From Deltaproteobacteria bacterium (GTDB lineage: Bacteria; Myxococcota; Myxococcia; Myxococcales; 40CM-4-68-19): a stretch of 54,910 nt of DNA. The translations under genes and the position numbers were made by a program. The notes under the pieces are model-generated. The model saw only the letters and a list, made by a program, of their open reading frames with translations. It searched no databases and was not told the origin of the DNA. Every line of letters begins with the position of its first letter. Position 1 is the first letter of the stretch. Where the stretch lies: positions 1-54,910 of the forward strand of contig JANYKT010000175.1 in the NCBI GenBank assembly GCA_025358085.1, written 5' to 3'. Shown in pieces: positions 18,188 through 42,769 of the stretch.

Positions 18188-19762
18188 TCAGCTCCGCCCG
18201 AGCAACTGCGCCAGCGCGTCGACCAGCGCCGCGGGCTCGACGGGCTTCGCGATGTGCTGCTGGAATCCCGCCAGAAGCGCCTGCGCGCGATCCTCGGCGC
18301 GCGCGTTGGCGGTCAGCGCTGCCGCGGGAATGGTGGGCTGGACGTCCCCGCGCCGGACGCGGCGGATGAGCGAATAGCCGTCCTCGCTCGGCATCGAGAC
18401 GTCGCTGAGCAACAGGTCGAACGGCGCCGCGTGGAGCGCTGTCATCGCCTCGGCCGCCGAGCCAGTGGACGTCACGCGGGCGCCGAACTGCTCCAGGAGC
18501 GTGGTGAGCAGGTACTGCGCGTCGAGGTCGTCCTCGACCAGCAGAACTCGTACGCCCTGCAGGTCCTGGTGCCGCGGGCGGTCCTTGGTACGCGAAGGCG
18601 GCGGCACCGACGCGCACGCAGTCCGCGAGCGGAGCGGAAGCGTGACGGTGAAGCGCGCTCCGGTACCTGATCCGTCGCTGTCGGCGGTGACGCTGCCGCC
18701 GTGCAGTTCGACCACGTGCCGCACCAGCGAGAGCCCGAGCCCGAGCCCGCCCTTCTCGCGCGAAAGCTGCCCGTCCTCCTGCCGGAACGCGTCGAACGCA
18801 TGAGGGAGGAAGGCGGGATCGATGCCCCGGCCGGAGTCGCGCACCACCAGCAAGAGCTCGAACTCGGACGGCTGCAGCTGGACCTGCACTGCGCCGCCGC
18901 GGGTGCTGAACTTGATGGCGTTCGCGACCAGGCTATGGACGATCTGGTGCAGGCGGTCGGCGTCGCCGAAGACGCGGTACTCCTCGTCGAGCGGGCGCGA
19001 AACCTGAAGTTGCAATTTCGCCTCGTTCGCCGCGGGCCGCAACGCATGGACCGCCGCCTCCACCAGCGCGCCCATCTCCACTTCGCGGAAGGTGAGGCTC
19101 ATGGTACCGGCGGAAATGCGCTGCGCGTCCAGCAGGTCATCGACCAGCTGCGCTTGCAGCCGCGCATTGCGTTCGATGGCCTCGAGAGGGCGGCCCTGCG
19201 AGTCGGCGTTGGCCTTGCCCAGGCGCAAGAGCCGCACCCAGCCGAGGATCGAGGTGAGCGGCGTCCGCATCTCGTGCGAGAGCGTGGCGAGGAACTGGTC
19301 CTTGAGACGGCCCGCCTCCTCTGCCGCACGCTGCCCGGCCTCGGCCCGGAGCTGCGCCGCTTCGGCGAGCTTCTGCGCGGCCTCGGCGAGTTGCTGCGCA
19401 GCTTCCGCGCGCGCGAGGGCCTGGGCCGAGAGGTGCAGCGTCAGCAGCGCGACCGCCTTCGCACGCAGGAGAGCCGCGTCCAGCGGGGCCGGCAGCGCGT
19501 CCACCGCGCCGTCCGCGAGCAGCCGGAGCAGGTCCGCCGCGGGCGCGTCCACCACCACCACCGGCACGTGCGGCGCCGCCTCGCGCAGGCGCCGCAGCGG
19601 GGCAGGGTGGACCGCGATGATCAGCTCGTGCTGGGACAGCCCGGCGTCGGCCTCGGAGAGCGAAGAGTTGGCCGTCAGCGAGAGCTGCAGCGGTCCCAGC
19701 GCCGCAGCCACCTTTGCCGTGTCCGCGCCGAGGAGCAGCGCCCGTTTGCCGCGCGTCGTCAC
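18188..19762 (-). CDS. Hybrid sensor histidine kinase (pseudo-REC, HisKA, HATPase, REC)
   Basis: This is a 524-residue soluble hybrid kinase. Residues 5-105 look like a receiver fold without a phospho-acceptor Asp (LIIAVHP in place of the usual Asp strand). A five-heptad signalling helix at 119-153 leads into the HisKA domain, with the phospho-accepting His in LSHEMRTPLT (H163). The HATPase domain has the N-box (LVANAIKF), DSGRGID and GLGLGLSL. A C-terminal receiver carries its Asp in LLLSDVSMP and its Lys in HIAKPVEP. No membrane segment or sensor domain is visible, so input probably comes through the pseudo-receiver. It overlaps the preceding kinase gene by 4 bases (ATGA), so the two are co-translated. 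Confidence 0.92.
   Translation of the reverse strand: MTTRGKRALLLGADTAKVAAALGPLQLSLTANSSLSEADAGLSQHELIIAVHPAPLRRLREAAPHVPVVVVDAPAADLLRLLADGAVDALPAPLDAALLRAKAVALLTLHLSAQALARAEAAQQLAEAAQKLAEAAQLRAEAGQRAAEEAGRLKDQFLATLSHEMRTPLTSILGWVRLLRLGKANADSQGRPLEAIERNARLQAQLVDDLLDAQRISAGTMSLTFREVEMGALVEAAVHALRPAANEAKLQLQVSRPLDEEYRVFGDADRLHQIVHSLVANAIKFSTRGGAVQVQLQPSEFELLLVVRDSGRGIDPAFLPHAFDAFRQEDGQLSREKGGLGLGLSLVRHVVELHGGSVTADSDGSGTGARFTVTLPLRSRTACASVPPPSRTKDRPRHQDLQGVRVLLVEDDLDAQYLLTTLLEQFGARVTSTGSAAEAMTALHAAPFDLLLSDVSMPSEDGYSLIRRVRRGDVQPTIPAAALTANARAEDRAQALLAGFQQHIAKPVEPAALVDALAQLLGRS
19304..19408 (-). repeat. Five tandem 21-bp units encoding coiled-coil heptads
   Basis: Within the hybrid kinase gene, five imperfect 21-bp units encode AEAAQQL, AEAAQKL, AEAAQLR, AEAGQRA and AEEAGRL. 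They form a continuous helix directly before the HisKA domain. Gain or loss of a unit would keep both reading frame and heptad register. Confidence 0.75.
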
Positions 19763-21201
19763 CGCTCGGCAACCGCTTTCGGGAGGCGCAACCAGAAGGT
19801 GGTGCCTGAGCCCAGTTCGGAGCGGAGGCCGACCGTGCCTCCGTGGGCCTCGACGATCTCCTTCACGATGACCAGGCCGAGGCCGGTGCCTTCCACCTTG
19901 GCCGCGGCCGAGCCAGTGACCCGCGCGTACTTGGTGAAGAGGCGCTTCTGCGCATCAACCGGGATGCCCCGGCCGGTGTCCTCGACGGCAAGCTCGATGC
20001 CGGCGGGGTCGCGCTGGAGACGCAGCACCACCCGGCCACCGCTGGAAGTAAACTTGAGCGCGTTGGACACCAGGTTACCCACCACCTGCGTCAGACGGCG
20101 CCCGTCGCCCAGCACCGCGGCGGGCTGCCCAACCTCCATCGCGAGCTCCAGACCGCGTGCGGCAGCGAGCGGCAGATATTCGTCGTAGACGCTGGTGCAG
20201 ACGTCCCGCAGGTCCACCTCACCGTGTTCGATCTTGAATTGCGCCGACTCCATCTGCGCGATGTCGAGAAAGTCGCTGACCATGCGAACGAGGTCGTGCA
20301 CGCGCGCCGTCATCTTCTCCAGCTCCTGCTTGACCTCCGTGGTGAGCGGGCCCCGCATGCCCTGCAGCAACATCTGCGTGCGCATCTGCAGCGCGGTCAG
20401 GGGCGAGCGCAGATCGTGCGCCACCATCGAGTAGAAGTCCACTTGCCGCTTCTCGCGCTCTCGCACCTCGGTCACGTCGCGCAGGGTGACGGTCGTATTG
20501 CCGAGATCGTCGCTGGGCGGGATGCTCAGGTGCGGCGAATAGATGCGGCGCCGAATCTCGACGTCGACCGGCTTGCCTCCCTCGCCACCCGCTGCGAGGA
20601 GGTGGCCGGCAGGGCCGGGCGCGAGCTCGGTAATGTCGCAACCGACCATGGAGGCTGCCGTCCGATCGAACACCCGTTCTGTTTCGGAATTGACAAAGAT
20701 GATCCGGCTTTTGCGGTCGAAGGTAATGACCGCGTCGGGCAACTGCGAGAGCACCTGGCTCAATAAAAGCTCGGCGTGCTCGGCGCGCTCACGCAGCTGC
20801 CGGGCGCGGACCAGCGCGTCCACCCGCGCGCGCAGCACCGGTGCCGCGTAGGGCTTGACCAGATAGTCGTCGGCGCCCGCGTCGAGCCCTTCCACCACTT
20901 GATCGGTCTGCTGGTTGATGGTGAGGAGCAACAAACCCAGCGTCGCGGTCGCCGGACGCGATCGGACGAACTGGCAGATGTCGATTCCGGACACGCCGGG
21001 CATTACCCAGTCCACCACCAGCACGTCGGGCAACTTGCCCGTAGCCAGCTGCTCGAGCGCGACAGCACCCTCGGCGAAAAGTTCGACATCATAGGTCCCC
21101 GCCAAAGCGCGGCGCGCGATTTCAGACTCGAGCGGGCTGTCGTCCACAACCCACGCGATTCTGCGGCGCTCGGGCGGAGGCTGGCCTCGGAGACCATTCA
21201 T
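19759..21201 (-). CDS. Sensor histidine kinase with N-terminal receiver and PAS domain
   Basis: This 480-residue soluble protein has an intact receiver at about 14-130, with the acidic pair VVDD, phospho-acceptor D64 in VVDWVMP and Lys in YLVKPY. A PAS domain (about 150-235) begins LSQLPDAVITFDRKSRIIFVN. The HisKA domain carries its His in MVAHDLRSPLT, and the HATPase domain carries NALKFTSSGG, DTGRGIP and GTGLGLVIVK. The order suggests that phosphorylation of the receiver by another kinase controls its activity. It is transcribed divergently from chemosensory operon 1 (about 110 bases between starts) and is co-transcribed with the hybrid kinase that follows, so the three units may signal together. 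Confidence 0.92.
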   Translation of the reverse strand: MNGLRGQPPPERRRIAWVVDDSPLESEIARRALAGTYDVELFAEGAVALEQLATGKLPDVLVVDWVMPGVSGIDICQFVRSRPATATLGLLLLTINQQTDQVVEGLDAGADDYLVKPYAAPVLRARVDALVRARQLRERAEHAELLLSQVLSQLPDAVITFDRKSRIIFVNSETERVFDRTAASMVGCDITELAPGPAGHLLAAGGEGGKPVDVEIRRRIYSPHLSIPPSDDLGNTTVTLRDVTEVREREKRQVDFYSMVAHDLRSPLTALQMRTQMLLQGMRGPLTTEVKQELEKMTARVHDLVRMVSDFLDIAQMESAQFKIEHGEVDLRDVCTSVYDEYLPLAAARGLELAMEVGQPAAVLGDGRRLTQVVGNLVSNALKFTSSGGRVVLRLQRDPAGIELAVEDTGRGIPVDAQKRLFTKYARVTGSAAAKVEGTGLGLVIVKEIVEAHGGTVGLRSELGSGTTFWLRLPKAVAER

Positions 21202-21310
21202 CGTGCGCGTGTAACATGAACGCAGCCGGCGTTGGCATGCTCCCGCGCGTGCCTGTTGAGCACAATACCAGGCGCTCGCCCGTTACTTGACCCATGCCTC
21301 TTTCGCCTTC

Positions 21311-21706
21311 ATGGTCCGCTCGATGCGCGAGATCCTGGTGGTGGACGACAGCAAGGTCATGCGCGACATGATTGTTGCGTGCCTGCGATCCGACGCGAGC
21401 CTGCGGTTCTCGCACGCTGCCAGCGGGCTCGAAGCCATCGAGCAGCTTTCGCTTCGCCCCTTTGATTTAGTCGTTCTCGATCTCAACATGCCGGACATCG
21501 GCGGCATCGAAGTGGTGGAGTTCATTCGTGGCCAGGATCGCTTGCGCCATCTCCCGATCATCATCGTCACCACGCGCGGGGACGAGGCCTCGCGAGCCAG
21601 CTCGCTGGAGGCGGGCGCCTCGCGCTTCCTGTCCAAGCCATTCGAGCCTGAGGTCATCCTAAGCGAAGTACAGGGTTTGCTGCAGCAGAGCGCGGCGCGT
21701 CCTTGA
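21311..21706 (+). CDS. cheY: CheY-type single-domain response regulator (Che operon 1)
   Basis: This receiver of about 131 residues has all catalytic residues: VVDD at strand 1, phospho-acceptor D57 in VVLDLNMP, Thr in IIVTT and Lys in FLSKPFEP. It is probably the output protein of the CheA encoded next. The start could be ATG 21311, ATG 21323 or TTG 21287. None has a strong ribosome binding site, and the fold begins at REILVVDD. Its TGA overlaps the TTG start of cheA (21703). Confidence 0.9.
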   Translation: MVRSMREILVVDDSKVMRDMIVACLRSDASLRFSHAASGLEAIEQLSLRPFDLVVLDLNMPDIGGIEVVEFIRGQDRLRHLPIIIVTTRGDEASRASSLEAGASRFLSKPFEPEVILSEVQGLLQQSAARP

Positions 21707-23745
21707 GCACCAAGGTGGATCTCAGCGAATTCGTCGCCGGCTTCCTGGCCGAGGCGGATGATTTGCTGGCGCTGGCGAATAGCAGCCTGCTTCTGGCAGA
21801 GACGGCGTCAAAGGACGTCAAACAGAATCCGCGCGCGGTGCGCGAGGCGTTCCGGGCACTGCACACCATCAAGGGGCTGTCGGCGATGGTCGGCGTCGAG
21901 CCGGTGGTAGCGCTCGCGCACCGGATGGAAGCGGTGCTGCGGCTCGCCGATCAAGGGGTGATGCGGCTGACGCCCGAGTCGGTCGATCTCCTGCTGCAAG
22001 GAGTGCGCGCCATCGAGCAGAGGGTGCAGGCGCTGCGCGAGGGCAAGACCGTGGCGGAGGCTCCGGTTGCGCTGCTCGGCCAGCTCAAAGCGATCGAGGC
22101 GGGGCTACTCGCGCCGCGTGCAACAGCGCCGGCGCAGCTCGACCTTTCGCCTTTGTTGCTCGCGAGGTTGCTGCCGATGGACCGCGAGCAGCTCCTGCAA
22201 GGCATCGCCGCGGGCAGGAACGCGCTGCGCGCCGACTTCACGCCTTCACCCGAGAAGGCGGCAGCGGGCATCACCATCACCTCCGTCCGCGAGCAGCTGA
22301 AGGCGCACGCCGAGATCGTCAAAGTCCTCCCGCTGTCGGTCGCAGACACCGCCGAGGCGCCGGGTGGCCTGTCGTTCGTTCTCTTCCTGCTGACTGACGG
22401 AACGCCCGCGACGCTTTCGACGCTGATGATCGCGAGCGGGCTCACCCTCACGCCCCTCGCAGCTGCGCCCTTGCCGCCGGCCCGGCCAGATGAATTGGCG
22501 GGTGAAGCGCGGGCCCGGCTTTCGGCCCAGCAGGTCGAACTGGCGGAGCTGGAAGAGGAGAGCGCGGGGACGCGGCCCGGCCTGGTGCGAGTGGAGGTAG
22601 CGCGGCTCGACGACACCATGGAAAAGCTGTCCGCGTTCATCGTCACTCGCTATCGACTCATGCGCGCGGTGACCGATCTGGCCGCGACTGGCGTCGACGT
22701 GCGCACGCTGAAACAGATCATGGCCGAAAATGCGAAACAGCTTCGCGACCTGCGCGCGGCCGTGCTCCACGTCCGGATGGTGCGGATGGGCGAAGTGCTG
22801 GAGCGGGTGCCCCTGTTGGTGCGCGGCCTGCGCCGCAACACCGGGAAGCAGGTCCGGCTGGTGCTCGATGTCGGCAACGCAGAAGTGGACAAAGCGGTTG
22901 CGGACCGGATCTTCCCGGCCATCGTGCACCTGGTCCGCAACGCGGTTGATCACGCCATCGAGAGCCCGCAGGAGCGCCGCGCACTGGGCAAGCCGGAAGA
23001 GGGCGAGCTGCGCATCGTCTGCCGGCAGCGCGGCGGCAACCAGCTGGAGCTGTGCATCACTGATGACGGCCGTGGCGTGGACCGGGAACTGGTGGCGAGG
23101 CGCGCGGGCCGCGAGGTGCCCGAGAGCGATGCGGCGCTGCTCGACCTGCTTTGCCTTCCTGGCCTCTCGACGCGCGACCAGGCGACCACCACCAGCGGGC
23201 GCGGCATGGGCATGGACATCGTCCGCCGCGTCGCCGCGGACGAGCTGGGCGGGGAACTTTTGCTGCAGACGAAGCTGGGCGCGGGTACCACCTTCACGCT
23301 GCGGGTTCCGCTGACCATCACCATCATCGACGCCTTCTCCTTCGAGTGCGGGGACCAGCGCTACGTGGTGCCTGTCTCGATGGTGGAAGAGATTGTTGAA
23401 CTCGATCCCGCGCGGCTCGCACACACGCCCGGCGCGCGATTCGGCGCATCGCTGGTGGAGCGGAGCGGCGAAGCGATACCGGTGTTGCAGCTTGCACAGA
23501 TCTTCGGGCTTTCAGAGAAGACGCCCGCCACCCGCGCGATGGTGATTCGACGCGGCGGCGAGGCGACTGGCATCGCCGTGCACCGCATGTTGGGGCAGCA
23601 GGAGGTGGTGGTGCGGCCGATGCAAGATGCGCTGGTCCGCGTGGTTGGAGTTACGGGTGCGACCGACCTGGGCGACGGCCGGCCCACGCTGGTGCTCGAT
23701 CTGGCCGCGCTCGCTGGCGCTGCGCTCGCAAAGGAAGCCGCATGA
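21703..23745 (+). CDS. cheA: CheA chemotaxis kinase (Che operon 1)
   Basis: This 680-residue CheA has an N-terminal Hpt domain with the phosphorylated His in ALHTIKG (H54). A weak P2-like region lies around 180-215. The dimerisation helices run from about 295 to 365, and the HATPase domain has the N-box [14 protein letters not shown] (409-422), DDGRGVD and SGRGMGMD (498-505). A C-terminal CheW-like domain begins near 535. It should phosphorylate the CheY and CheB of this operon in response to the soluble MCP. Translation starts at TTG 21703, inside the cheY stop (TTGA overlap). The next gene overlaps by ATGA. Confidence 0.94.
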   Translation: MSTKVDLSEFVAGFLAEADDLLALANSSLLLAETASKDVKQNPRAVREAFRALHTIKGLSAMVGVEPVVALAHRMEAVLRLADQGVMRLTPESVDLLLQGVRAIEQRVQALREGKTVAEAPVALLGQLKAIEAGLLAPRATAPAQLDLSPLLLARLLPMDREQLLQGIAAGRNALRADFTPSPEKAAAGITITSVREQLKAHAEIVKVLPLSVADTAEAPGGLSFVLFLLTDGTPATLSTLMIASGLTLTPLAAAPLPPARPDELAGEARARLSAQQVELAELEEESAGTRPGLVRVEVARLDDTMEKLSAFIVTRYRLMRAVTDLAATGVDVRTLKQIMAENAKQLRDLRAAVLHVRMVRMGEVLERVPLLVRGLRRNTGKQVRLVLDVGNAEVDKAVADRIFPAIVHLVRNAVDHAIESPQERRALGKPEEGELRIVCRQRGGNQLELCITDDGRGVDRELVARRAGREVPESDAALLDLLCLPGLSTRDQATTTSGRGMGMDIVRRVAADELGGELLLQTKLGAGTTFTLRVPLTITIIDAFSFECGDQRYVVPVSMVEEIVELDPARLAHTPGARFGASLVERSGEAIPVLQLAQIFGLSEKTPATRAMVIRRGGEATGIAVHRMLGQQEVVVRPMQDALVRVVGVTGATDLGDGRPTLVLDLAALAGAALAKEAA

Positions 23746-24167
23746 CAGGCACGCTTCACGTCGTCTTCAAGGTGGGCGGGAGCGAGTACGCGCTGCCCGC
23801 CGCCGATGTTTTGCAGATGGAGTCGTTCACCTCCGCGACGCCGGTTCCGGGGTCGCGGCCTTGGGTCGCGGGAGTGATGCAGGTGCGTGGGCGCATCGTG
23901 CCGGTGGTGGACGCGCGCGTGCGTTTCGGCCTGCCCCCTCTGGAACGGACCCTGGACAGCCGCGTGGTGGTCGCGATGCACGCCGAGCGCGCGGTGGCGC
24001 TGCTGGTCGATGCGGCGCGCGAGGTGCTCAAGCTCGACCCCTCGCAGATCAAGCCTCCGCCGGAGATCGTCGCGCGCGAAGCAATGGGCCTGGTCAAAGG
24101 CGTGGCGCAGGTCGGCCCGCGGATCGTGATGCTGCTCGATTTCGCAAAAGTGATTGGCGAGGAATGA
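23742..24167 (+). CDS. cheW: CheW coupling protein (Che operon 1)
   Basis: This 141-residue single CheW domain opens with VVFKVGGSEYALPAADVLQM and carries the conserved core VAGVMQVRGRIVPVVDARVRFGL at about 43-65. It links CheA to the chemoreceptor. Start and stop both lie in 4-base ATGA overlaps, with cheA upstream and the MCP gene downstream, giving one tightly coupled unit. Confidence 0.94.
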   Translation: MTGTLHVVFKVGGSEYALPAADVLQMESFTSATPVPGSRPWVAGVMQVRGRIVPVVDARVRFGLPPLERTLDSRVVVAMHAERAVALLVDAAREVLKLDPSQIKPPPEIVAREAMGLVKGVAQVGPRIVMLLDFAKVIGEE

Positions 24168-26728
24168 CGACCATGAATGTTGCAACGACGACGACACCGA
24201 CGGCTGACCAGCCGAACAGCTCCGAGCGAGCCCACACGCGGGCGGAAGAGACGGCGCGCTCCCTGCGCGATACGGCGGCGCAGGCGCAAGCCATCGAGGA
24301 GGCGGCGCGGCGGCTGGCCGAGACCGGCACCGGGCAGGCTTCGGCGACCGAGGAGATCCGCGCCAGCATCGAGTCGATCGCCGCCGGCGTAGAGGAGACC
24401 GGCCAGTCGATTCACCATCTGGGCCGCTCGCAGCGTGAGGTCGCCGAGACCGCCAAGGCACTGCAGGAGAGCGCCGAGACCAACGCCGCCGCGCTGCAGG
24501 CGGTGAGCAAATCGGTGGCCTCGGTGCGCCGCGACTCCGAAGCGCTGGCGAACTCGGTCGAAAGCACGACCCAGACCGTCGAGGAGATGGCCCGCTCGGT
24601 GAAGGGCGTGGCCACCAACGCCGAGGACGCGGCGTCCTCGAGCGAGCAATTGCTGGCGGCGGCGACCGAGAACGCGGCCACCATCGGCGAGCTGGTCAGG
24701 GCCGGCGAGGCTTCGGCCGCCAACACCGAGGAGGTCGCGGCCACCATCGAAGAGATGGCGAAAGGGCTCTCGCGACTTGCTGCCGATGCGCAGGGCGCGG
24801 CGGCTCGCGCCGAGAGCACGGCCACGGCGGTGACGTCGGTGGGCAAGGCGCTCGGCGAGGTGGCGCGCGGGGCCGGCGACATGGCCGCGTCGGTCGAGGA
24901 GACTTCTGCTTCCACCGAGGAGCTGGCGCGCACCATCCGCGCCGTCGCCGATCACGCCAAGGCAGTGGAGGCCGCGGCCCAGGGCAACGCCGCCGCCACC
25001 ACGCAGATTGCCGCCTCCGTCGAGCAGGTCTCGGCGACCGCGGAGAAGAACGCAGCCACCGTCGAGCAGAACGTCGCCACCATTGAACAGCTGGCCCGCA
25101 GCGCGCAGGGCACGGCCCAGGCGGCGGAGCGCATCGTCGTCCTGGCGGCGTCCAGCGCGACCGGCGCGCAGGAGCTTGACGCCACCTCGCAGCGCATCGC
25201 GCAGATGGGCGAGGGCGCCCGGCTTACCGCCGACAAGGTCACTGCGGTCGCGCGCGAGGGCGGCGCCAACGTGACCAAGTCCATCGCGGGCCTGGGCCGC
25301 ATCCGGCAGTCAATGGTTGAGTCGGCGACGGTGATGAAGGAGATGGGCAAGCGGGCCGAGGAGATCGGCGACTTTGTCCAGACCATCAATATGATCGCCG
25401 ACCGCACGAACTTGTTGTCGCTCAACGCCAGCATCGAAGCGGCGCGCGCGGGCGAGCATGGGCGCGGCTTCGCGGTGGTGGCCGAGGAGATCCGCGCGCT
25501 CGCCGATCGGGCGGCGGTCGCCAGCATGGACATCGCCAAGGTGATCCGCGGACTGCAGTCGACCACCCGCGACGCCATCACCGCATCGACGGAAGGACTC
25601 AAAGTCGCCGAGGAGGGAAATCTGCTGGCGGGCGAGGCGGACAAGGCGATCGGCTCCATCCTCTCGGGCGTCGAGCAGCTCGGGCTCTCGGTCAAGGAAG
25701 TCTCCCGCGCCAATGGTGAACAGCTGCAGGCGGTGCGAACCCTTTCGCTGGGAACGGCGCAGGTCAACGAGCAGGCGCGCGGCATCGCGGTGGCCGCGAA
25801 CGAGCAGGCGCAGTCGGCCCACGCACTCGCGCGCTCGGGCGGCGAGATGCGCAAGATGGCCAAGCAGACCAGCCAGTCCACCGCCGAGCAGGCGCTGGCG
25901 CTGCGCGATTTGCTTCGCAACAACGCGCAGCTGACCTCCAGCGCCGAGCAGGTTTCGCGGGCCACGCAAGAGCAGGCGAACGCGGCCGCCGAGTTGGCCA
26001 AGGGCGCGGCGCAAATGCGCTCCATCACCCAGCAGACCGCAGCCGCGATGGCGGAGCAGGGGCGCGCTGCCTCGCAGGTGATCGTCGTCGCCGGCGAGAG
26101 CGCGACCTCGGCGCAGCGCATGCTGGTGGGGCTGACCGAGCAGTCGAAGGGTGCAGCCGAAGTGGCGCGGGCGATGGAGGACTCGCGCAAGCAGGCGGTG
26201 CAGACGGCGCGCGCGGTGAATGAACAGGCGCGCGCGGCGCAGCAGACCGAAGCGGCGGCGCGGCAGGTGGCGCAACTCGCGGCCCAGGTGACCAAGGCGA
26301 CCTCGGAGCAGACCAAGGCGGCGGTGTCGCTCGCCAAAGCGTCGGAGGAAGTGCGGCGGGTGGCACGGCAGACAGCGCGCGCATCGGCCGAGCAAGACGC
26401 GGCTCTCGGCGGTATTGCCGCAGCGGCGGCGAAGCAGGCGGCTGGCGTAGCGGCCATCGCGCGCGCCACCGATGAGCAGGCGGCGGCAAGCGAGGAACTC
26501 GGGCGCGCCACAGTGGTCATGCGCACGCGAGCCAAGGAGATCACGACGACCGTGGCCCAGGCGGCCAAGACGGCTGCGGGCGTCGCAACCGAGGTGGCGG
26601 GCATCGCCGCGGACGTCGGTCGCATCCGCGAGGCGAACCTTGCCAACGCCGACGCGCTGGCGAGCATCACCGCTGCCCTCGCTGAAGGCCGTTCCAATGG
26701 GGCCGCCCCGCGGGTGGAGAAGGCGTGA
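24164..26728 (+). CDS. Very long cytoplasmic methyl-accepting protein (Che operon 1)
   Basis: This 854-residue protein has no membrane segment and no separate sensor domain, and nearly all of it is predicted helical coiled coil. The MCP hairpin tip is unmistakable: NMIADRTNLLSLNASIEAAR at 409-428, then AGEHGRGFAVVAEEIR. The tip falls almost exactly at the centre (about residue 425), giving two arms of about 420 residues. The C-terminal arm contains related blocks near 545, 602, 714 and 770 (pattern EQxxAAxxLAxxxxxMRxxxxQT). Transmembrane MCPs have cytoplasmic hairpins of about 250-310 residues in total, so this one is unusually long. It must sense a cytoplasmic cue or partner. The HEAT-repeat protein encoded next is a candidate. 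Confidence 0.9.
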   Translation: MTTMNVATTTTPTADQPNSSERAHTRAEETARSLRDTAAQAQAIEEAARRLAETGTGQASATEEIRASIESIAAGVEETGQSIHHLGRSQREVAETAKALQESAETNAAALQAVSKSVASVRRDSEALANSVESTTQTVEEMARSVKGVATNAEDAASSSEQLLAAATENAATIGELVRAGEASAANTEEVAATIEEMAKGLSRLAADAQGAAARAESTATAVTSVGKALGEVARGAGDMAASVEETSASTEELARTIRAVADHAKAVEAAAQGNAAATTQIAASVEQVSATAEKNAATVEQNVATIEQLARSAQGTAQAAERIVVLAASSATGAQELDATSQRIAQMGEGARLTADKVTAVAREGGANVTKSIAGLGRIRQSMVESATVMKEMGKRAEEIGDFVQTINMIADRTNLLSLNASIEAARAGEHGRGFAVVAEEIRALADRAAVASMDIAKVIRGLQSTTRDAITASTEGLKVAEEGNLLAGEADKAIGSILSGVEQLGLSVKEVSRANGEQLQAVRTLSLGTAQVNEQARGIAVAANEQAQSAHALARSGGEMRKMAKQTSQSTAEQALALRDLLRNNAQLTSSAEQVSRATQEQANAAAELAKGAAQMRSITQQTAAAMAEQGRAASQVIVVAGESATSAQRMLVGLTEQSKGAAEVARAMEDSRKQAVQTARAVNEQARAAQQTEAAARQVAQLAAQVTKATSEQTKAAVSLAKASEEVRRVARQTARASAEQDAALGGIAAAAAKQAAGVAAIARATDEQAAASEELGRATVVMRTRAKEITTTVAQAAKTAAGVATEVAGIAADVGRIREANLANADALASITAALAEGRSNGAAPRVEKA

Positions 26729-29079
26729 CCCAGCCGTCTTCCCCGCTGGTGCTGTCGTCGGCCGATCGCGAGAGAATTTCCGAGGTCGATCGGCTCGCGG
26801 CACAGGGCTCGGAGAGAGTCCCTGAGCTCGTGGTCCTGATCGCCAGCCGCGGCTGGGCGGTTCGGCGGGCGGTGGTCGCGGCGCTGGCGCGCATCGGTGA
26901 CCCGGCCATCGCCGCCATCGTGCAGAGCTTGATCTCGCAGCGCGACGACGAGGGGCGCCTGGCAGCGATGGTGGACGCGCTCTCCGCCTCGCGCGGCGAC
27001 GCGGCGACACCGATGCTGCGGCTGCTCGACGAGCCGTGGAGCCCGCCAGCGCTGATCTGCGACGCCGTCCAGGTTCTCGGTCGCCGCAAGGTGACCGCCG
27101 CAGTTCCGGCGCTCGAGCGGCTCACCGCGCACCAGGACGACAACGTCGCGGTGGCGGCCATAGAAGCGCTCGGGCGCATCGGCGGTGGCGCTGGGCTCGA
27201 GGCGATGATCGCCATTCTCTCGGGCGACAATTTCTTCCGCAGCTTCCCCGCCATCGACGTGCTGGGCCGCAGCGGCGACTCGCGCGTGCTGGTGCCCTTG
27301 TTGGCGCTGTTGGATGACCCGCGCCACGCGCTCGAGGCCGCGCGCGCGCTGGGCCGCGTGGGGGATCCGGCTGCCGCGGTCGCATTGTCCGAGTTGTTGC
27401 GGCACGCGGGAGACGCTCTGGCGCGGGTGATTGCCGTATCGCTCGGCTCCATTCACGGGCAGGCGCTGGATCGCTACGGAACCGCCGAGCCGGTCGAGGC
27501 CGCGCTGCGCACCGGCCCCGCCGATCCTCTGCCAATCGTGCAGCGTCTCGCGCAGGCCGTAGCAGGCGCCGCGGACGAGGAGCAGGCTGCCCTCTGCGCG
27601 GTGCTCTCGTGGATCCCCGACCCGGCTGCCGCGAACACGCTGATCGGTCTGCTCGACATCATTCCCGCGCGCGCGGCCCTGGCCCTGCGCGCGCTCGGAC
27701 ACGAGAGCGACCAACAGGTTTTGCTCGCGCTGCGCGAGGGCAGCAGCGCTCGGCGGGCGCTGCTATTGCCGCTCATCAGCGGCCGCACGCGCTCGGCGAA
27801 CGATGTCCTCGACTGCCTGGCCGACCCTGATGCATCGGTTCGCGTGCTCGCCTGCAACGCGCTCGCGCGCATCGGCGACGTGCGCGCGGTCCCCAGTCTC
27901 TTCGAGCTGCTGCGCGATCCTGACCCGATGCTGGTGCAGGCGGCGGTCGCTGCCATCCAGTCGCTGGGTAGCCCCAAGGCCGAAACCCTCGCGCTGCAGG
28001 CGGCGCTCTCCCCGGCGACTCAGGTGCGCCGCGCTGCGCTGCGCATCGTCGCCTATTTCGGCTACCCGGCCGGACTTGATCTCTTGATCGACGCCGCGAA
28101 GGGCGGGGACGAAAAGCTGCGCGACGCCGCCATCCACGGGCTCGCGCTCCTGGAAGAGCCGCGCGCCCTGCAAGCTTTGCTCGGCATGGCGGCGCACAAG
28201 AATCCGCGGGCCCGCGGCGCGGCGGCACGTGCGCTGGGGCAGGCCAGCAGCAGTCCGGAGGTGCTCGCCGCGCTGCGCCAGGGCCTCGCAGACGGGGATG
28301 CCTGGGTCCGCTATTACGCCTGCCAGTCTCTCGGCAAGGTGCGGGACGACGGCGCGGTGAATGAAATCTTGCGGCTGGTCCGCGACCCGGCCGGACAGGT
28401 GCGGGTCGCCGCCATCGAGGCGCTCGCGCGGCTGGAGACGAAGGAGGCGCTGGAAGCGCTGCAGACCGCTGCTGGCGCGGACGATCCCGACGTGCGGCGC
28501 GCGGCGCTGCTGGGGCTCGGCGCGCGCAAGGTCCCCGAGGCGCTGCCGGTCCTGGTGCAGGCAGCGCGCAGCGCCGACGCCGCTACCCGCTTGATCGCCG
28601 TCTCCGCGGTGGCCGCGTACGACGGTCCGGAAGCGGTGGCCGCACTGGCGAATGCAGCTGGAGATCCCGACGCCGCGGTCTGCGGCGCTGCCATCGGCCT
28701 GCTCGCCGCGCGCGCGGATCCCGCGGCCACTCCCGCGTTGATCGCGCTCCTGGCAAATCCCTTCACCCGCGACCGTGCGGTGGACGCGCTGGCTGCGGGC
28801 GCGCCCGGACGGATGGCGGGCATCTCCGCCGCGCTCGAGGGTGCCGGGGCTAGCCTCGCCACTTCGCTGGTCGCGGTGCTGGCGCGCATGCGGCGCAAAG
28901 ACACCTTCGCCGCCATCATCGATGCGCTCTCGCTCCCCAACGTCTTCGCCCGCCGTGCGGCCGCATCCGCGCTCGGGGTACTGAGGCTTCCGGAAGCGCG
29001 CGCAGCACTCGAACGCGCCATTGGCGCCGACCCGGATCCCGAAGTGCGCCGCGCTGCGCTGGCGGCCTCCGGTCCCTGA
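26725..29079 (+). CDS. HEAT-repeat protein in Che operon 1
   Basis: This 784-residue protein is built from about two dozen repeats of roughly 31 residues. The recurring pattern is V(R/A)(R/A)AA(I/L)xALGxI/LGDPxAxxxL, for example VAVAAIEALGRIGG, VRVLACNALARIGDVRAVP and VRRAALLGLGARK. These are HEAT or PBS-lyase-type repeats forming an alpha-solenoid for protein binding. There is no signal peptide or membrane segment. It sits between the soluble receptor and CheR with overlaps on both sides (GTGA at 26725, TGATG at 29077), so it should be made in step with them. A scaffold or input role for the soluble MCP is plausible. No catalytic domain is visible. Confidence 0.9.
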   Translation: MTQPSSPLVLSSADRERISEVDRLAAQGSERVPELVVLIASRGWAVRRAVVAALARIGDPAIAAIVQSLISQRDDEGRLAAMVDALSASRGDAATPMLRLLDEPWSPPALICDAVQVLGRRKVTAAVPALERLTAHQDDNVAVAAIEALGRIGGGAGLEAMIAILSGDNFFRSFPAIDVLGRSGDSRVLVPLLALLDDPRHALEAARALGRVGDPAAAVALSELLRHAGDALARVIAVSLGSIHGQALDRYGTAEPVEAALRTGPADPLPIVQRLAQAVAGAADEEQAALCAVLSWIPDPAAANTLIGLLDIIPARAALALRALGHESDQQVLLALREGSSARRALLLPLISGRTRSANDVLDCLADPDASVRVLACNALARIGDVRAVPSLFELLRDPDPMLVQAAVAAIQSLGSPKAETLALQAALSPATQVRRAALRIVAYFGYPAGLDLLIDAAKGGDEKLRDAAIHGLALLEEPRALQALLGMAAHKNPRARGAAARALGQASSSPEVLAALRQGLADGDAWVRYYACQSLGKVRDDGAVNEILRLVRDPAGQVRVAAIEALARLETKEALEALQTAAGADDPDVRRAALLGLGARKVPEALPVLVQAARSADAATRLIAVSAVAAYDGPEAVAALANAAGDPDAAVCGAAIGLLAARADPAATPALIALLANPFTRDRAVDALAAGAPGRMAGISAALEGAGASLATSLVAVLARMRRKDTFAAIIDALSLPNVFARRAAASALGVLRLPEARAALERAIGADPDPEVRRAALAASGP

Positions 29080-29894
29080 TGTCGCTGCCCCTCTCCCCGC
29101 AGGTCTTCGCCATCCTGAACGGGCTGATCGAAGATCGCGCCGGCCTGCACTACGGCCCCAACGATGTCGAGATCGGCCGCGACAAGATCTCCGACCGTGC
29201 CGAGGCGGCCGGGTTCGACTCGCTGCTCGATTACTATTACTTCCTCCGCTATGACCCGGGCGGCAGCGCGGAACTGGATTTGCTGGTGGACGGGCTGGTC
29301 GTCCACGAGACCTACTTCTTCCGCGAACCTGATCAGCTTGAAGTGCTGGTGCGCCGGCTGCTCGCGCGCAGGCTCTCGGACGACGCGACCGTGCGCATCT
29401 GGTGCGCGGCCTGCGCGACCGGCGAGGAGCCATTGACGCTGGCGATGATGCTTGCCGACCTGGGCCTGCTGCGGCGCGTGCGCATCGTGGCGAGCGACAT
29501 CAGCGAGCGCGCGCTGGTCCGGGCGCGCAGCGGAGAATTCACCCCGCGCGCCGTCCGGTCACTGCCGGCGGGAATTGAGGGACGGTGGATCCTGCGCGAG
29601 GGAAATCGCGTCCGCGTCGAGGCTTCGCTCGCCTCCGCGATTGAGTGGCGCCGCATGAACCTGCTCGACGGTGCGGCGATTGCGCAGCTGGGCCGCTTCG
29701 ACGTGGTGCTGGCGCGGAACGTGCTCATCTACTTCGGTGACGACACCGTGCGGCGGGTCGTGAAGAGTCTCTCCGACGCGCTTTTGCCTGCCGGGCTCCT
29801 GCTGGTAGGGGCTTCCGAGTCGCTGCTGCGCTACGGCACCTCGCTTTCGTGCGAAGAGCACGGAGGCGCATTTTTCTACCGGAAGGTTGCATGA
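29079..29894 (+). CDS. cheR: CheR receptor methyltransferase (Che operon 1)
   Basis: This 271-residue protein has the CheR N-terminal helical domain, then VHETYFFREP and the SAM-binding motif WCAACATGEEPLTLA at about 108-122, followed by VLARNVLIYF. It should methylate Glu residues of the operon's MCP using S-adenosylmethionine. It lacks the C-terminal pentapeptide-binding insert or TPR extension of some relatives. The ATG overlaps the HEAT gene stop by one base (TGATG). Confidence 0.94.
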   Translation: MSLPLSPQVFAILNGLIEDRAGLHYGPNDVEIGRDKISDRAEAAGFDSLLDYYYFLRYDPGGSAELDLLVDGLVVHETYFFREPDQLEVLVRRLLARRLSDDATVRIWCAACATGEEPLTLAMMLADLGLLRRVRIVASDISERALVRARSGEFTPRAVRSLPAGIEGRWILREGNRVRVEASLASAIEWRRMNLLDGAAIAQLGRFDVVLARNVLIYFGDDTVRRVVKSLSDALLPAGLLLVGASESLLRYGTSLSCEEHGGAFFYRKVA

Positions 29895-30925
29895 CGACGC
29901 GCGTTCTGGTGGTGGACGACTCGGCGTTCGCGCGCAAGGTGGTGCGCGAGGTGCTCACGCGTGCCGGCTTCGAGGTCGTGGGCATTGCCCGCGACGGGCT
30001 CGAAGCGCTGGAGAAGATCGGCGAGTTCAAGCCCGACGTCATCACGCTGGATCTGGTGATGCCCAACCTCGACGGGTTGGGAGTGTTGGCCGCGCTTTCG
30101 GCGGTGAATCCCCCGCGCGTGGTGGTGGTGAGCATGGCGGGCGAGGACAGCGCGCTCGGCATCGCGGCGCTGCACGCGGGCGCCATGGTGGTGGTGCGGA
30201 AGCCGACCGCGCTGGCGTTGGACCGGCTCTACGAATTGGCCGGCGAGCTGACCGCGGCCGTTACCGCCGCGGCCATCGCACGGACGCCGCGCTTGCTCGA
30301 GTCGGGGGCGGCGGGTGCGCTGACGACCGTGGGCGCGACCGCTCTCGGGCGAGCGGCGAAGCACGAGGTGCTGGTGCTGGGCGCGTCCACCGGCGGCCCG
30401 CAGGCGCTCACGCGGATCATCAGGGCGCTGCCCGGACATTTCCCGCTGCCGGTGGCGCTGGTGCTGCACCTGCCGGTCGGCTACACGCAGCCTTTCGCCG
30501 AACGGCTCGACCGCGAATCGGACGTCGAGGTGCTCGAAGCGGCCGATGGACTCGAGATGGAGCCCGGCCGCGTGCTGGTGGCCCGCGCCGGAGAGCACCT
30601 GCGGCTGCAGCGCTTCGGCGACAAGGTCCGCGCCGTGCTCGATCCGAATCCTGCGGACACGCCGCACCGGCCCGCGGTGGACGTGCTCTTCGAGAGCGCG
30701 GCCGAGGTTTACGGCGCGCGCGTTCTAGCCGCGGTGCTGACCGGAATGGGCAACGACGGCACCCGCGGGGCGTGCGCGATTCACGCCGCCGGCGGGACGG
30801 TGCTGACCGAGGCGGAGCACTCTTGCGTGGTGTACGGCATGCCCCGTTGCGTGGAAGAGGCCGGCGTCTCGGCGGGCAGCTTCGGCATCGAAGCGCTGGC
30901 AGGCGAGTTTTTCCGCCGGCTGTAG
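29891..30925 (+). CDS. cheB: CheB receptor methylesterase (Che operon 1)
   Basis: This 344-residue protein has an N-terminal receiver with phospho-acceptor D54 (ITLDLVMP) and Lys in VRKPT. The C-terminal methylesterase domain has its catalytic triad: S166 in LGASTGGPQ, H193 in LHLPVGY and Asp in GMGNDGTRG. It removes methyl groups from the MCP when phosphorylated by CheA. The start lies in an ATGA overlap with cheR. It is the last gene of the operon. The neighbouring RAYT pseudogene ends only 15 bases beyond it on the other strand. Confidence 0.94.
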   Translation: MTTRVLVVDDSAFARKVVREVLTRAGFEVVGIARDGLEALEKIGEFKPDVITLDLVMPNLDGLGVLAALSAVNPPRVVVVSMAGEDSALGIAALHAGAMVVVRKPTALALDRLYELAGELTAAVTAAAIARTPRLLESGAAGALTTVGATALGRAAKHEVLVLGASTGGPQALTRIIRALPGHFPLPVALVLHLPVGYTQPFAERLDRESDVEVLEAADGLEMEPGRVLVARAGEHLRLQRFGDKVRAVLDPNPADTPHRPAVDVLFESAAEVYGARVLAAVLTGMGNDGTRGACAIHAAGGTVLTEAEHSCVVYGMPRCVEEAGVSAGSFGIEALAGEFFRRL

Positions 30926-30940: not shown

Positions 30941-31634
30941 TCATTGCTGACAAGGAGCGCTCAATCGCCGACGGATTCCGCCTGCCGGAGACGGAAACGC
31001 GGCTGCGACTCCAACCTCGCCCGGCACACGTCCAGGCCGTTTCGCGCGCGTCCACCCGATCGTCAGCAGCCATGTCCGCGCCTCGGTGGCGAGGTCGGGT
31101 CGCGCGCCGGAAGAGAACGGATCCACATCGTGCTGCAGCTCTGGAAAGTGGTGCGCCAAATTTTCGCGGACAGAGCGAATGGCATTCGCTCCTTCCGTGG
31201 GAGTGGCCAGCACCCGCGCGTGATAGGGGTCCGCGAAAACGGCCCCGCTGCGCTCTAGCGCGCCATTGAGCGCCCGCGCCAGCCGGATCGTCAGCCCCTG
31301 CATTCCCCGGGAGAGCGCCTGGCGGTCGTCCGCCTCGACGATCAGGTGCAGGTGATTGCCCAGCACCGGGAAGTGGACGAGCCGCATTCCTGACTAACCG
31401 ATCCTGAGCCTTCGAAACGGCGCGCTCGACCGCGCCGAAGCACTTTGCGCTGCGCAAATTCGAGACCGTGCGCCGTACTCTGAGCGTGACGTGGACGGGC
31501 GCCCGTTTCACAAAGCGAGGCCGGGCCTGGTGCGAGATGCCCGCGTTGCGCTTGCGCGGCCGGCCCGCGCCAGGACGTGAGCCGCCGCGGCTGGTGAACT
31601 GCAGAGGAAGCTGGGGCGCCGCGCGTCGCCTCAT
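30941..31634 (-). pseudogene. RAYT (Y1/IS200-like tyrosine transposase), frameshifted
   Basis: The N-terminal part (from ATG 31634) reads RGGSRPGAGRPRKRNAG and VHVTLRVRRTVSNLRS, typical of REP-associated tyrosine transposases. It continues to SKAQDRLV near 31395. There the frame breaks by one base, and the protein resumes in another frame as MRLVHFPVLGNHLHLIVEAD. The metal-binding HxH (NHLHL) and the catalytic Tyr in FADPYHARVL are preserved. These enzymes move or maintain REP palindromes and lack terminal repeats of their own. No clear REP array was seen nearby. A single base change would restore the gene, so a sequencing error is possible. Confidence 0.75.
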
Positions 31635-37950: not shown

Positions 37951-39489
37951 TCAGACGCGGAAGCGGCGGACGACGTCGGACACTCGCTGTGACAAGTCCT
38001 TCAGCACCGACGCGGCCTGCGTGGTGGTCTCCAGCCGCTTCATCGTCTCATCCATCATGCGAGTCTGGTCCGTCACCGCGCTGAAGATCTGCGTGATGCC
38101 CGCATTCTGCTGCGAGACCGCGGCCGCGATCTGCCGCACCGCCGACGAGTTGTCCTTCACGATGGTCGACAGCTCGCGCAGGTTCTCGCCCGACGCCTTG
38201 ACCTGCGCGAGCCCGCCCTCGATCTTTTGCGAACCGCGCTCGGTGATGCTGACCGTCGCGCGAATAGCCCCGCCGATGTCCTCGAGGATCTCCCGCACTC
38301 GATTGGTCGCCTGGATCGATTGATCAGCCAGCGAACGGATCTCCCGCGCGACCACGGCGAAGCCCTTGCCGTGCTCGCCCGAGCGCACCGCTTCAATTGC
38401 CGCATTCAATGCCAGCATATTTGATTGGTCGGCCAGATCCTTCACTGTCTGGGTAATGCCGCCAATCTGCTGCGTCCGCTCCGCCAGCTGCGCGATGCGC
38501 TGCGCGATCTCGTCCACCTGCGCGCGGATATCGGTCAGTCCACCCAGGCTGCGTTCGATGGCCGCCTCGCCTTGCGTCGACACCGCGTCCGCCTTCTCGG
38601 TGAGCTTCAACACCATCTCGGCCTTCTGCGCGGCCAGGAGGGAAGTCTGCTTGATCTCCTGCGCCGTCACCTGCGTCTCCTGCAACGCGGTCGCCTGCCG
38701 GGTGATGGTCTGGGACTGCTCGGCTGTCGAGGTGCCCAACTCGCTCCCGGCGTTCGCCAGCAGCCGCACCGATTCCTGCAGCGCGCTCAAGACCTCCTTG
38801 AACTTCTCCACCATTTGCGCGAAGGCGCGCGCCAGCTCGCCGACCTCGTCATTCGTGGTCACCTCAACTTTCGCGGTCAGGTCGCCTTCGACAATCAGCG
38901 AGGCGACGTGCGTGAGCCGCAGCAACGGCGCGACGAAGCTGCGCACCACCAGCACCGCGATGCCGAGTGCCACCAGAAGCGCGAGCAGCGTGATGGCGAG
39001 CAGCAGCTTCTGCGCCTCCATCACGCGATTGTTGCCTTCGGCCGGGTCGAGCCCGACATGCACGATGGTTCCGGTGATCACCGCCGCCGGCACGTCGATA
39101 TAGGTAACGCCTTCGATGACGTTGTCTGCGACTTTGCTGGTCTGCTTGAGGATCGCCGCATCCTGCGCCGGCGCGCGGCCCTCGAAGGTGTGCGCGATAA
39201 TAGCGCCATTCGGGCCGACCACCTCGACATAAGCGAGGTTCGCCTCCTTCTTGACCGAGGCAATGGTCGAGGCCACCGCCGAGTCGGGCATCTCCACCAG
39301 CGCCGACGCGAGCGTGGCGGAGATGGCCTTGCCGCGATCGCGCGCCTCTTTGCGCAGCACGTTCCGGAAGTAGACGATGTTGGAGACACTGGTCGCGATG
39401 GCGAGAAGCGCAAGCATGCCGCCGACCAGCAATGACACCTTCCACTGCAAGGGAAAACTTCCGCGCGATTTTCGTTGCACAATTTCCAT
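37951..39489 (-). CDS. Transmembrane methyl-accepting chemoreceptor (Che operon 2)
   Basis: This is a 512-residue MCP of classic layout. A membrane helix at about 17-40 ([18 protein letters not shown]) is followed by a periplasmic domain of about 115 residues, a second helix near 155-182, a HAMP domain (about 183-235) and the signalling hairpin. The tip reads [27 protein letters not shown], with the unusual EAVRSG in place of the common EAARAG. The sensed ligand is unknown. The ATG lies 2 bases after the cheB stop, so it is the last gene of the operon. Its stop directly abuts the decayed island. Confidence 0.93.
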
Positions 39490-39491
39490 AT

Positions 39492-40505
39492 TCACGCTTT
39501 CCGGTTGCGGCACAGTTGCCGCAGGACTTCGGGCACGCTCTCGAGGGCGAGTTGCTGCCGCACTGCTCCGCAGGCAAAAGCGGCCTGGGGCATTCCATAG
39601 ACGATTGAGCTCGCTTCGTCCTGCGCAAAAGTCTGACCGCCGGTCTGCCGCAGCACCAGCAAGCCCTGCGCGCCGTCGTCGCCCATGCCGGTGAGGACCA
39701 GGCCGGCCGCGCGAGACCCATAGTGCTTGGCCAACGAGAGCAGCAGCCGATTGCCCGACGGGCAATGCAACGCCGTACCCCGTGGCGTCCGCAAAAGACC
39801 GCCCGCGTCCACGGTCAGATCGCAGCCGTCGGGCGCCAGGTAGACGTAGCCGGGTTGCAACAGCTCGCCGTCGTGAGCGATCGAGACACTGAGTTGAGTC
39901 ACGCCGGCCAGCCAGCGTGAGAGACCCGCGGTGAAGCCGGAGGCGATGTGCTGCGCGATGAGCAGGGGCGCGCCCAGCTGGCTCACCTTGGCGAGGACCT
40001 GCGCCAGCGCCGGCGGCCCGCCGGTCGACGCGACGATGCCCACCACCTCGACCGCGCCCAGATGCATTTGCGTAGACGGCGCGCCCGCTCGGTACCGGCG
40101 GACCACCGGCACCTCGGCCATCAGCCGGACCGATTCGGCCACCCGCCGGCCCCACTTGCGCAGCTCTTCCGGGCCGGCAGCGGGCTTGGCGATGAGCTCC
40201 AGCGCACCGGCGGCCATGGCCCGGAACGAGAGATCGAGCTGCCGATCCTCCGAGATGGAGCAGATCACCAGCACCCGCGCGGGCGCATCGCGCATGATGG
40301 CGGCGATAGCGCTCAAGCCGTCCAGCCGCGGCATGTTCACGTCCATGGTGATCACGTCGGGCCGCAGCGCGCGCGCCTTCTCGACTGCTTCGACGCCGTC
40401 CATCGCGAGGCCGACGATGGCGAGGTCCGGCTCGGCAGAGAGGAGCTGCACCAGCGCGTTGCGCATGGTTGCCGAGTCGTCGACGACGAGCACGCGGATG
40501 GTCAC
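39492..40505 (-). CDS. cheB: CheB receptor methylesterase (Che operon 2)
   Basis: This 337-residue protein has a receiver domain with phospho-acceptor D55 ([13 protein letters not shown]) and Lys in IAKPAAG. A linker leads to the methylesterase domain with Ser in VASTGGPP, His in AQHIASGF and Asp in GMGDDGAQG. It should demethylate the MCP encoded next. It overlaps the CheA gene by 4 bases (ATGA at 40502-40505). Confidence 0.94.
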
Positions 40506-42769
40506 GCCGCAGATCCCTTCCGCCGCGTGATCACGCTAGCGACCTCGGCCAGCAGCCGGCCCGCCACGCAATCCTTCTTGGAGAGGAACCCGTCGGCGCC
40601 GACCTCGGTGCCATGCTGCCGGTCTGCGGCCGAGTCGCGCGCGGAGACGAGAATGACCGGCATGGAGTCGGTCTCGGAGCGCTGCCGCACGGCTGAGGTC
40701 AGCTGGAAACCGTCCATCTCCTCCATGCCGATGTCGCAGACCAGCACGTCGTAAGCCGCATGCCGCAGCTGCTCCAGCGCCTGCCGCCCGTTCGAGGCGG
40801 TGTGCACCTGGTACCCGCCCGCCTCGAGCGCGGTGCGGTGCAGCGCGCGCGCGGTCAGCGAGTCGTCCACCACCAGCGCGCGCCGGGTCGCGGTCACGCT
40901 CTCGCCCGAGCGGTCCTGATTCACCACCCAGTCGGCCCGCACGATCAGCACCAGCTCGCCGCGCGCCAGCGTGGCCGCGCCCTGGTAGGCGGGCATGTCA
41001 CGCACCTCGGCGGGCAGCGGGCGGATCACCAGCTCTTTGTCGCCCATCACCTCGTCCACGCTGAGCGCCAGCCGCTTGCCCTGCGAGTGGAGGATGAGGA
41101 TGGGCTGCCCTTCGAACGGCACCTCGGGCTGGCGCAGGCCCATCAGCGCGCCGAAGTCCTGCAGCGGCAACAGCTCCTCGCGGTGCCGCAGCTGCAGGCG
41201 CGACCGGCCCACGCGCACGTCGACCGTCGTCGTGCGGCGCGAGGACTCGACCGCGGCCATGGGGATGCCCAGCTGGTGCTCGCCGCAGCGCACGACCAGC
41301 ACTGGCGAGCTGCCCAGCTCGGCGGGCAGGGTGAGGATGAAGCGCGTCCCCTGGCCCGGAGTGCTCTGCACTTCGACCTGTCCGTTCAGCCCCTGGATCT
41401 CATTGCGGACCACGTCGAGTCCGACGCCGCGCCCCGAGATGTCGGTCACCTCGGTCCGCGTGGAGAAGCCGGGCCGGAAGATGATCTGGTGGATCTGCGA
41501 GATGCTCATGGCGGTGAACTCGGCTTCGCTGGCGAGCCCGCGGCGCATCGCGGCTTCCTTGATGCGCTGGACGTCGAGGCCGTTGCCGTCGTCGCCCACT
41601 TCGATGAACAGCATGTTGCCCTGCTGCTCGACGCGGATGGTGAGCGCGCCTTCGCGGTGCTTGCCGCGGCCCTCGCGGACCTCCGGCGTCTCGAGCCCGT
41701 GATCCACCGCGTTGCGCACCAGGTGCACGAGCGGCGCGCGCAGGGCCTCGAGCACGCGGCGGTCGAGCGACACCTCCGCGCCCACCACCGACAGCTTGAC
41801 CAGCTTGCCCTGTTTCTGCGTCAGGTCGCGGACCGCGCGACGCAGCGGCTCGAGCACGGTGCGCACGGGCATGGTGGAGATGGCCTTGAGGCCGTCCTCC
41901 ATGGAGGCGACGATGTCGGCTGCCTCCTCGCCATCGGCGGTGAGCGAGCGGCGCGTGGAGAACAGCACCGCGCGGGCCTCCGCGTTGTCGGCCTTGAGGC
42001 CCAGCCGATCGAGCTGCTGCAGCGCGCGCTCGATTTCGCGGCGCCGCTCCTCGAGGTGCAGCCGCACTTCGCGGAGGCGCTCCACCTCGTGCAGCAGGCT
42101 GACCACCTGCCGCGTGGTGACCCGCCAGGCTTGCTCTTCGCCCGCGGGCAAAGACTGCGGGGACTCTTCCGGCCCGCGATCCTCGAGGCGGCGGCGGCGA
42201 TTCGGGGCGTCGGGAGCAAGGACGGCAGAGGGCGACGTCACGAGTTCGCCAACGAGCAGTCGCGCTCCGTCACCAGCAAGCGCGCCCCGCGGTGACGGCG
42301 GGCTTTGAGCCGGCGACGGGTCTTGCTGACCCGGCGCGTTCTGCGGGGCCGCCGGATTCTGCGGAGCCGGCGAGCTGTGCGGCGCGGATTTCGCTCTCGC
42401 GAGCAGCTCGTGCGACGCCTCCAGCGCGGGGGGGTCGAGCTTCGCATTGACGGCGCGCAGGTGCGCCATCCAGACGTCGAGCGTGCGCAAAAGAGCGTCC
42501 GCCACCTGCGGCGGCAGCGGCGCCTGTGAGTCTCGCAGCGGCAGCGCCACGTCCTCCATGCGGTGCGCGAAATCCGCCAGTGCGTCGAGGCCCAGCGTAG
42601 CGGCGCTGCCTTTGAGCGTATGCAAGCCACGGGCGAGACCGTCGAAGACCTGCGCGCGCCGGTCGGACCCTTTTTCCAGCTCGATGAGCTGGTCCGTCAG
42701 GCGTCCCGCGATCTCCTGCGCCTCGTCAACGAAGCCCGCCAGCAACTGCTCCATCAGCGGATCAAGCAT
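40502..42769 (-). CDS. cheA: CheA-receiver hybrid kinase (FrzE-like layout, Che operon 2)
   Basis: This 755-residue protein has an N-terminal Hpt domain with the phospho-His in GLHTLKGSA (H50). A Pro/Ala-rich linker (about 128-175) contains repeated PQNPAAPQN-like segments, and long dimerisation helices follow. The HATPase domain carries [21 protein letters not shown] and [12 protein letters not shown] CheW-like domain and a C-terminal receiver complete it, with Asp in [13 protein letters not shown] and Lys in FLSKKD. The attached receiver can act as a phosphate sink or as the output, as in FrzE of myxobacteria. The start is fixed by an 8-base overlap with the cheW gene. Confidence 0.94.

Follow-up and report, generated by a model that had tools for sequence, protein, structure and literature searches.

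A Cpc7-type HEAT solenoid in Che7-type operons of myxobacteria and its probable role as the output partner of CheY

The HEAT-repeat protein encoded between mcp and cheR in the che operon described here is almost certainly a relative of a protein that is already known from Myxococcus, and in a Che7-type operon it probably serves as the constant partner through which CheY acts, in the role that a flagellar motor protein has elsewhere. Judged by gene position, which corresponds to the place between mcp7 and cheR7 of the M. xanthus Che7 system, and by the collinearity of the encoded proteins, it is close to certain that the gene is the ortholog of cpc7. The operon lies in a window of 54,910 nucleotides, by which we mean the whole stretch of DNA that was analysed (contig JANYKT010000175.1 of assembly GCA_025358085.1, from a member of the Myxococcales). 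The Cpc7-type HEAT protein of Che7 was known before the present work; what is added here is the near-perfect co-occurrence of the HEAT protein with the CheA of the operon, the accessory status of the desaturase, an operon with a rearranged gene order, and a set of candidate binding helices. Across a broad range of myxobacteria the Che7 operon consistently includes the solenoid, whose conserved helices provide direct targets for working out how a single-domain response regulator can act on a partner outside the flagellar motor.

Results

The operon is tightly packed on the forward strand, with the gene order cheY-cheA-cheW-mcp-HEAT-cheR-cheB. The cheY gene (21287..21706), which according to Pfam encodes a single-domain response regulator and in which homology starts near an internal ATG at 21323, is followed by cheA (21703..23745), with Hpt, HATPase and CheW-like domains, by cheW (23742..24167, assigned by Pfam), and by the gene for a soluble MCP of 854 residues (24164..26728) that has its signalling domain in the middle of the protein and long arms. 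Downstream of the HEAT gene (26725..29079) are cheR (29079..29894, assigned by Pfam) and cheB (29849..30925, REC plus methylesterase), the conserved reading of which probably begins at 29891. The first-pass annotation of this DNA had described a 784-residue HEAT protein inside the operon with overlaps on both sides, and this description is accurate: the mcp stop codon TGA (26726-26728) and the HEAT start codon GTG at 26725 overlap by 4 bases, while the HEAT stop codon (29077-29079) shares a single base with the cheR ATG at 29079. It was likewise correct that the adjacent receptor is without a sensor domain, MCPsignal being the only Pfam model that it matches; no membrane span was found in it either, the most hydrophobic 19-residue segment averaging 1.39 on the Kyte-Doolittle scale.

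The HEAT open reading frame (26725-29079 on the forward strand, 784 codons from the GTG start) matches the Pfam model HEAT_2 in nine stretches with 270 bits (E 8.3e-82), and the other Pfam models that it matches are exclusively of the HEAT/ARM type. An AlphaFold2 model computed with 32 sequences as input contains 49 helices at a mean pLDDT of 92.3. The 50 structure matches listed for this model, most of which span residues 326-784, are general HEAT/ARM solenoids, among them alphaRep B2 (7p0h_A; Z 23.3, rmsd 2.9 over 217) and a PP2A complex (8uo5_A; Z 19.2, rmsd 8.1 over 450), and chemotaxis proteins are absent from these 50. What the protein has in common with the PP2A A subunit, the importins and alphaRep is the repeat fold, but this is a general solenoid only, and a shared function is not evident. 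The strand opposite the reading frame is largely open, which we take as a GC-rich shadow frame; the HEAT frame itself cannot be a product of chance, since 42 loci encode relatives that share 40-65% identity with it and are mostly full length. In four cases (L030, L036, G124 and G127) the HEAT frame is interrupted, either by sequencing error or by decay.

These relatives come from a scan of the HEAT protein against a collection of 84,980 species, each represented by a single genome, in which the identities refer to the best segment and nearly all of the 42 loci are myxobacterial. All seven genes are present at 33 of the loci, and 32 of these 33 have the order found in the window; at each of the remaining nine at least one of the seven genes is missing, and those that are left keep the same order. 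Where mcp, HEAT and cheR are all present they are adjacent in 36 of 37 loci, and the 4-base overlap of mcp with HEAT recurs in 20 of the 37. The exception is locus L026 (8001-18331), whose operon opens with HEAT; an interval of 54 bases separates it from cheY, and mcp and cheR come later. A kinase gene lies divergent to the front-placed HEAT there.

Because these loci had been selected by their HEAT protein, the converse co-occurrence was tested with CheA. Two scans of the phylum of the window detected HEAT in 50 of the 195 genomes drawn (E<=1e-40) and, among 193 drawn, the CheA of the operon in 50 (E<=1e-100); 49 genomes have both. The two discordant genomes are not true counter-examples, because their contigs end: in the genome with HEAT alone (G081), which perhaps fell outside the CheA draw, the 8,790-base contig stops just past cheW, and in the one with CheA alone (G106) the contig stops inside cheA. 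The CheA cut-off is specific for the CheA of the operon, as the Che7 CheA gives a best E of 1.9e-183 or better in the L013, L017 and L026 genomes, compared with values no better than 2.8e-58 for the next best CheA. Within the window's own family the receptor was detected in 2 of 12 genomes, and these are the same two that have HEAT. Taken together, the co-occurrence of HEAT, CheA and receptor indicates that the operon behaves as a unit, and the recurrence of the MCP-HEAT pair in other genomes, which the first-pass annotation had set as a check, is strongly borne out, in gene order as well as in joint presence. Of the 140 genomes drawn in a scan of Sorangium's group, 2 have HEAT, so the system is rare in that group, and a search of plasmids returned a single partial match. 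One further locus (L023), from a metagenome-assembled genome titled Planctomycetota, carries the complete operon with roughly 50% identity, through transfer or misbinning.

The correspondence with Che7 was established through locus L013 of M. xanthus AM003. The frames of this locus, with one of the possible start codons of each gene yielding the length given, encode CheY, CheA, CheW, MCP, CheR and CheB of 125, 683, 148, 821, 273 and 348 aa, and all six lengths equal those that Moine et al. 2014 (PMC3945109) state for CheY7, CheA7, CheW7, Mcp7, CheR7 and CheB7. In the numbering of PMC3945109 mcp7 is MXAN_6962 and cheR7 is MXAN_6960, so that MXAN_6961 is passed over, and L013 has between mcp and cheR a HEAT frame of 780 aa that is collinear with the window protein and 52% identical to it. 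The agreement of six lengths out of six implies that the HEAT gene occupies the position of Cpc7. The window has the features of Che7, namely cheY, cheA, cheW, a soluble mcp, cheR and cheB in one operon, as well as the feature of Cpc7, a HEAT solenoid encoded between mcp and cheR; the two systems agree in this position, in the neighbouring genes and in the length class of the protein (780 vs 784 aa).

A passage of a 2024 review (PMC11514114), which cites Darnell et al. 2014, describes Cpc7 as a HEAT protein of 27 helices and as an interaction partner of CheY7, whereas the model of the window ortholog has 49. Che7 is described in a passage of PMC9040617 as being associated with a HEAT protein and as needed to couple aggregation and sporulation. 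A search of the literature returned nothing on cpc7 itself beyond the PMC11514114 passage and mentions of Che7, the primary paper being Darnell 2014. The first-pass statement that the HEAT protein is not a standard Che component overlooks the Che7 system of myxobacteria, in which the HEAT protein Cpc7 is reported to bind CheY7.

In M. xanthus (L013) the gene after cheB encodes a fatty acid desaturase; we take it to be des7, encoding Des7. No such desaturase was found downstream of the window operon, which differs in this from the M. xanthus system, and the window's genome gives weak matches only. Where the sequence extends 1.2 kb or more past cheB, as it does at 36 loci, the desaturase is present in 10 and missing in 26; the ten belong to the Myxococcus/Pyxidicoccus group, apart from a single record that bears the title Comamonas. 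The desaturase was not counted as a defining feature of Che7, and its absence here and in most relatives marks HEAT as core and the desaturase as accessory. Its presence in 10 of 36 loci also rules it out as the general downstream target of the solenoid. The Comamonas record (L014, titled Comamonas sp. KCTC 72670) has a Myxococcus-like operon and a desaturase 95% identical to that of M. xanthus, which suggests a mislabelled assembly.

Conservation along the solenoid was evaluated in an alignment of the window protein with those of 31 of the 42 loci, from which near-duplicates (L002, L004, L007, L008, L012 and L040), sequences with a missing HEAT start (L033, L035 and L037) and sequences with a broken frame (L030 and L036) had been left out. 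Compared to an overall mean of 2.11 bits, three segments on the forward strand are highly conserved: residues 136-152 (HxDDNV...EALGRI, 27130..27180; mean 3.22 bits over the helix 139-152), the helix of residues 170-183 (FFRxFPAIDVLGRS, 27232..27273; mean 3.66 bits), and residues 523-538 (DxxxWVRYYACQSLGK, 28291..28338), in which the helix 526-538, with a mean of 4.44 bits, is the most conserved of all. F170, F171, R172, F174 and P175 are invariant in this alignment, as are W527, V528, R529, Y530, Y531, A532, C533 and Q534. The invariant aromatic residues of the three helices would not appear to be required by the HEAT fold, and their conservation makes these helices the best candidates for a binding site, which by analogy with the usual HEAT layout would lie on the concave side.

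On the side of the putative partner, CheY shows the strongest conservation among the operon's proteins, with a mean pairwise identity of 0.71 as against 0.52-0.60 for the others, and D20, D21, D65, T95 and K117, presumably the phosphorylation residues, are invariant in the 14 sequences compared. Since CheY is conserved on nearly all of its faces, its conservation singles out no surface for binding to the solenoid. Correlations of evolutionary distance were computed from the 25 of 43 operons (the window included) in which all genes reach at least 85% of the window length, reduced to 14 by the removal of operons with CheA at least 80% identical; no pair specific to HEAT emerged among these 14 operons.

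Discussion

The reported binding of Cpc7 by CheY7 makes an output partner of CheY the likeliest function of the solenoid, as against a sensor or a receptor scaffold. Flagellin gave no match in the window's genome, where the controls worked; a flagellar motor is therefore an improbable target for this CheY, which needs a non-flagellar one. As the solenoid is constant, also in a genome in which flagellin is not detectable and the Myxococcus desaturase is missing, the conserved output of CheY is probably the solenoid itself. In the mechanism that we propose, a cytoplasmic receptor array would control CheA, which would phosphorylate the single-domain CheY; CheY would bind the HEAT solenoid, most likely at the face of the conserved helices (residues 136-185 and 523-538), phosphorylation would alter this binding, and the solenoid, standing in for a flagellar motor protein as the constant partner on the output side of CheY, would hand the signal to a further downstream target. 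In the M. xanthus system phosphorylation is reported by Darnell 2014 to affect the interaction of CheY7 with Cpc7. We infer both the site at which CheY binds and the same binding of CheY by the window ortholog. The gene order of L026, in which HEAT directly precedes cheY, is in favour of the output function, while several observations count against it: HEAT generally lies next to mcp and cheR rather than cheY, the partial distance correlation of HEAT with CheY is -0.02 (n=14, non-independent pairs), the conservation of CheY points to no particular surface for the solenoid, the CheY7-Cpc7 binding is second-hand, as given in the passage of the review PMC11514114, and the helix counts of the review and the model disagree.

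The usual position of HEAT beside mcp and cheR leaves a receptor-side or dual role open. If the solenoid bound the rod of the soluble MCP, or CheR, it could organise a cytoplasmic array or limit methylation, and the adjacency of the three genes, the recurrent overlap of mcp with HEAT and the lack of a sensor domain in the receptor would all fit such a scaffold; we consider it unlikely nonetheless, because the partner named in the PMC11514114 passage is CheY, because L026 retains HEAT but at the front of the operon, and because the partial correlations of HEAT with MCP (-0.41) and CheR (0.22), weak data from 14 operons, lend it no weight. A little less probable is a more specific form of dual role, in which HEAT would be an obligate core Che component outside the textbook set, a solenoid gated by phospho-CheY that holds CheY to the receptor array or to CheR. 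This role would explain why HEAT has been kept in the operon while the desaturase has been lost, and, if true, output and adaptation would be physically coupled.

We give a still smaller chance to a combined hub that binds phosphorylated CheY together with a core component (CheA, CheW or MCP) and feeds the output back on the array. The status of HEAT as an obligate operon member and the several separate conserved segments along one long solenoid agree with a hub, as do the partial correlations of HEAT with CheW (0.57), CheB (0.48) and CheA (0.44), but these correlations are drawn from 14 sequences and from pairs that are not independent. Least credible of all, and very improbable in our judgement, is a sensory subunit that recognises a ligand or some protein of the cell and so provides the input of the sensorless receptor: ligand binding by the conserved aromatic and polar residues is conceivable, but Pfam finds no enzyme or ligand domain in the HEAT protein, the structure matches are generic HEAT scaffolds (PP2A A subunit, alphaRep), and the published partner sits downstream. 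The first-pass proposals of a sensory role, of binding to the receptor rod and of a block on CheR found nothing in their support, and in L026 HEAT is encoded beside cheY, away from mcp and cheR.

A HEAT protein also occurs in the che region of an archaeal taxis pathway. Passages of PMC2666748 describe OE2401F, a HEAT_PBS protein of Halobacterium salinarum, as needed for chemotaxis and phototaxis, as interacting with CheD and OE2402F (CheF1), and as having a proposed place between CheY and the motor. OE2401F differs in that it is archaeal and works with CheF on the archaellum. No cheF (DUF439), as is found for OE2401F, lies beside the window HEAT gene, the eight genes there, including a divergent kinase, belonging to other families.

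This kinase gene (19759..21201 on the reverse strand; REC-PAS-HisKA-HATPase by Pfam) lies upstream of cheY, often adjoins the operon in relatives, and occupies the same place in many of them (L021, L024, L029, L079 and L080, for example); it is not part of the M. xanthus arrangement, and it may belong to the system as well. Just past cheB there is a small reading frame (30941-31387, reverse strand) with no Pfam match at 0.001, which to the eye resembles a REP-associated transposase in its motif. A second che cluster on the reverse strand (37951-45351) contains another MCP, a CheA-REC hybrid, CheB, and CheW-like and CheR-like genes, which were named by reading, with the family search backing the MCP only.
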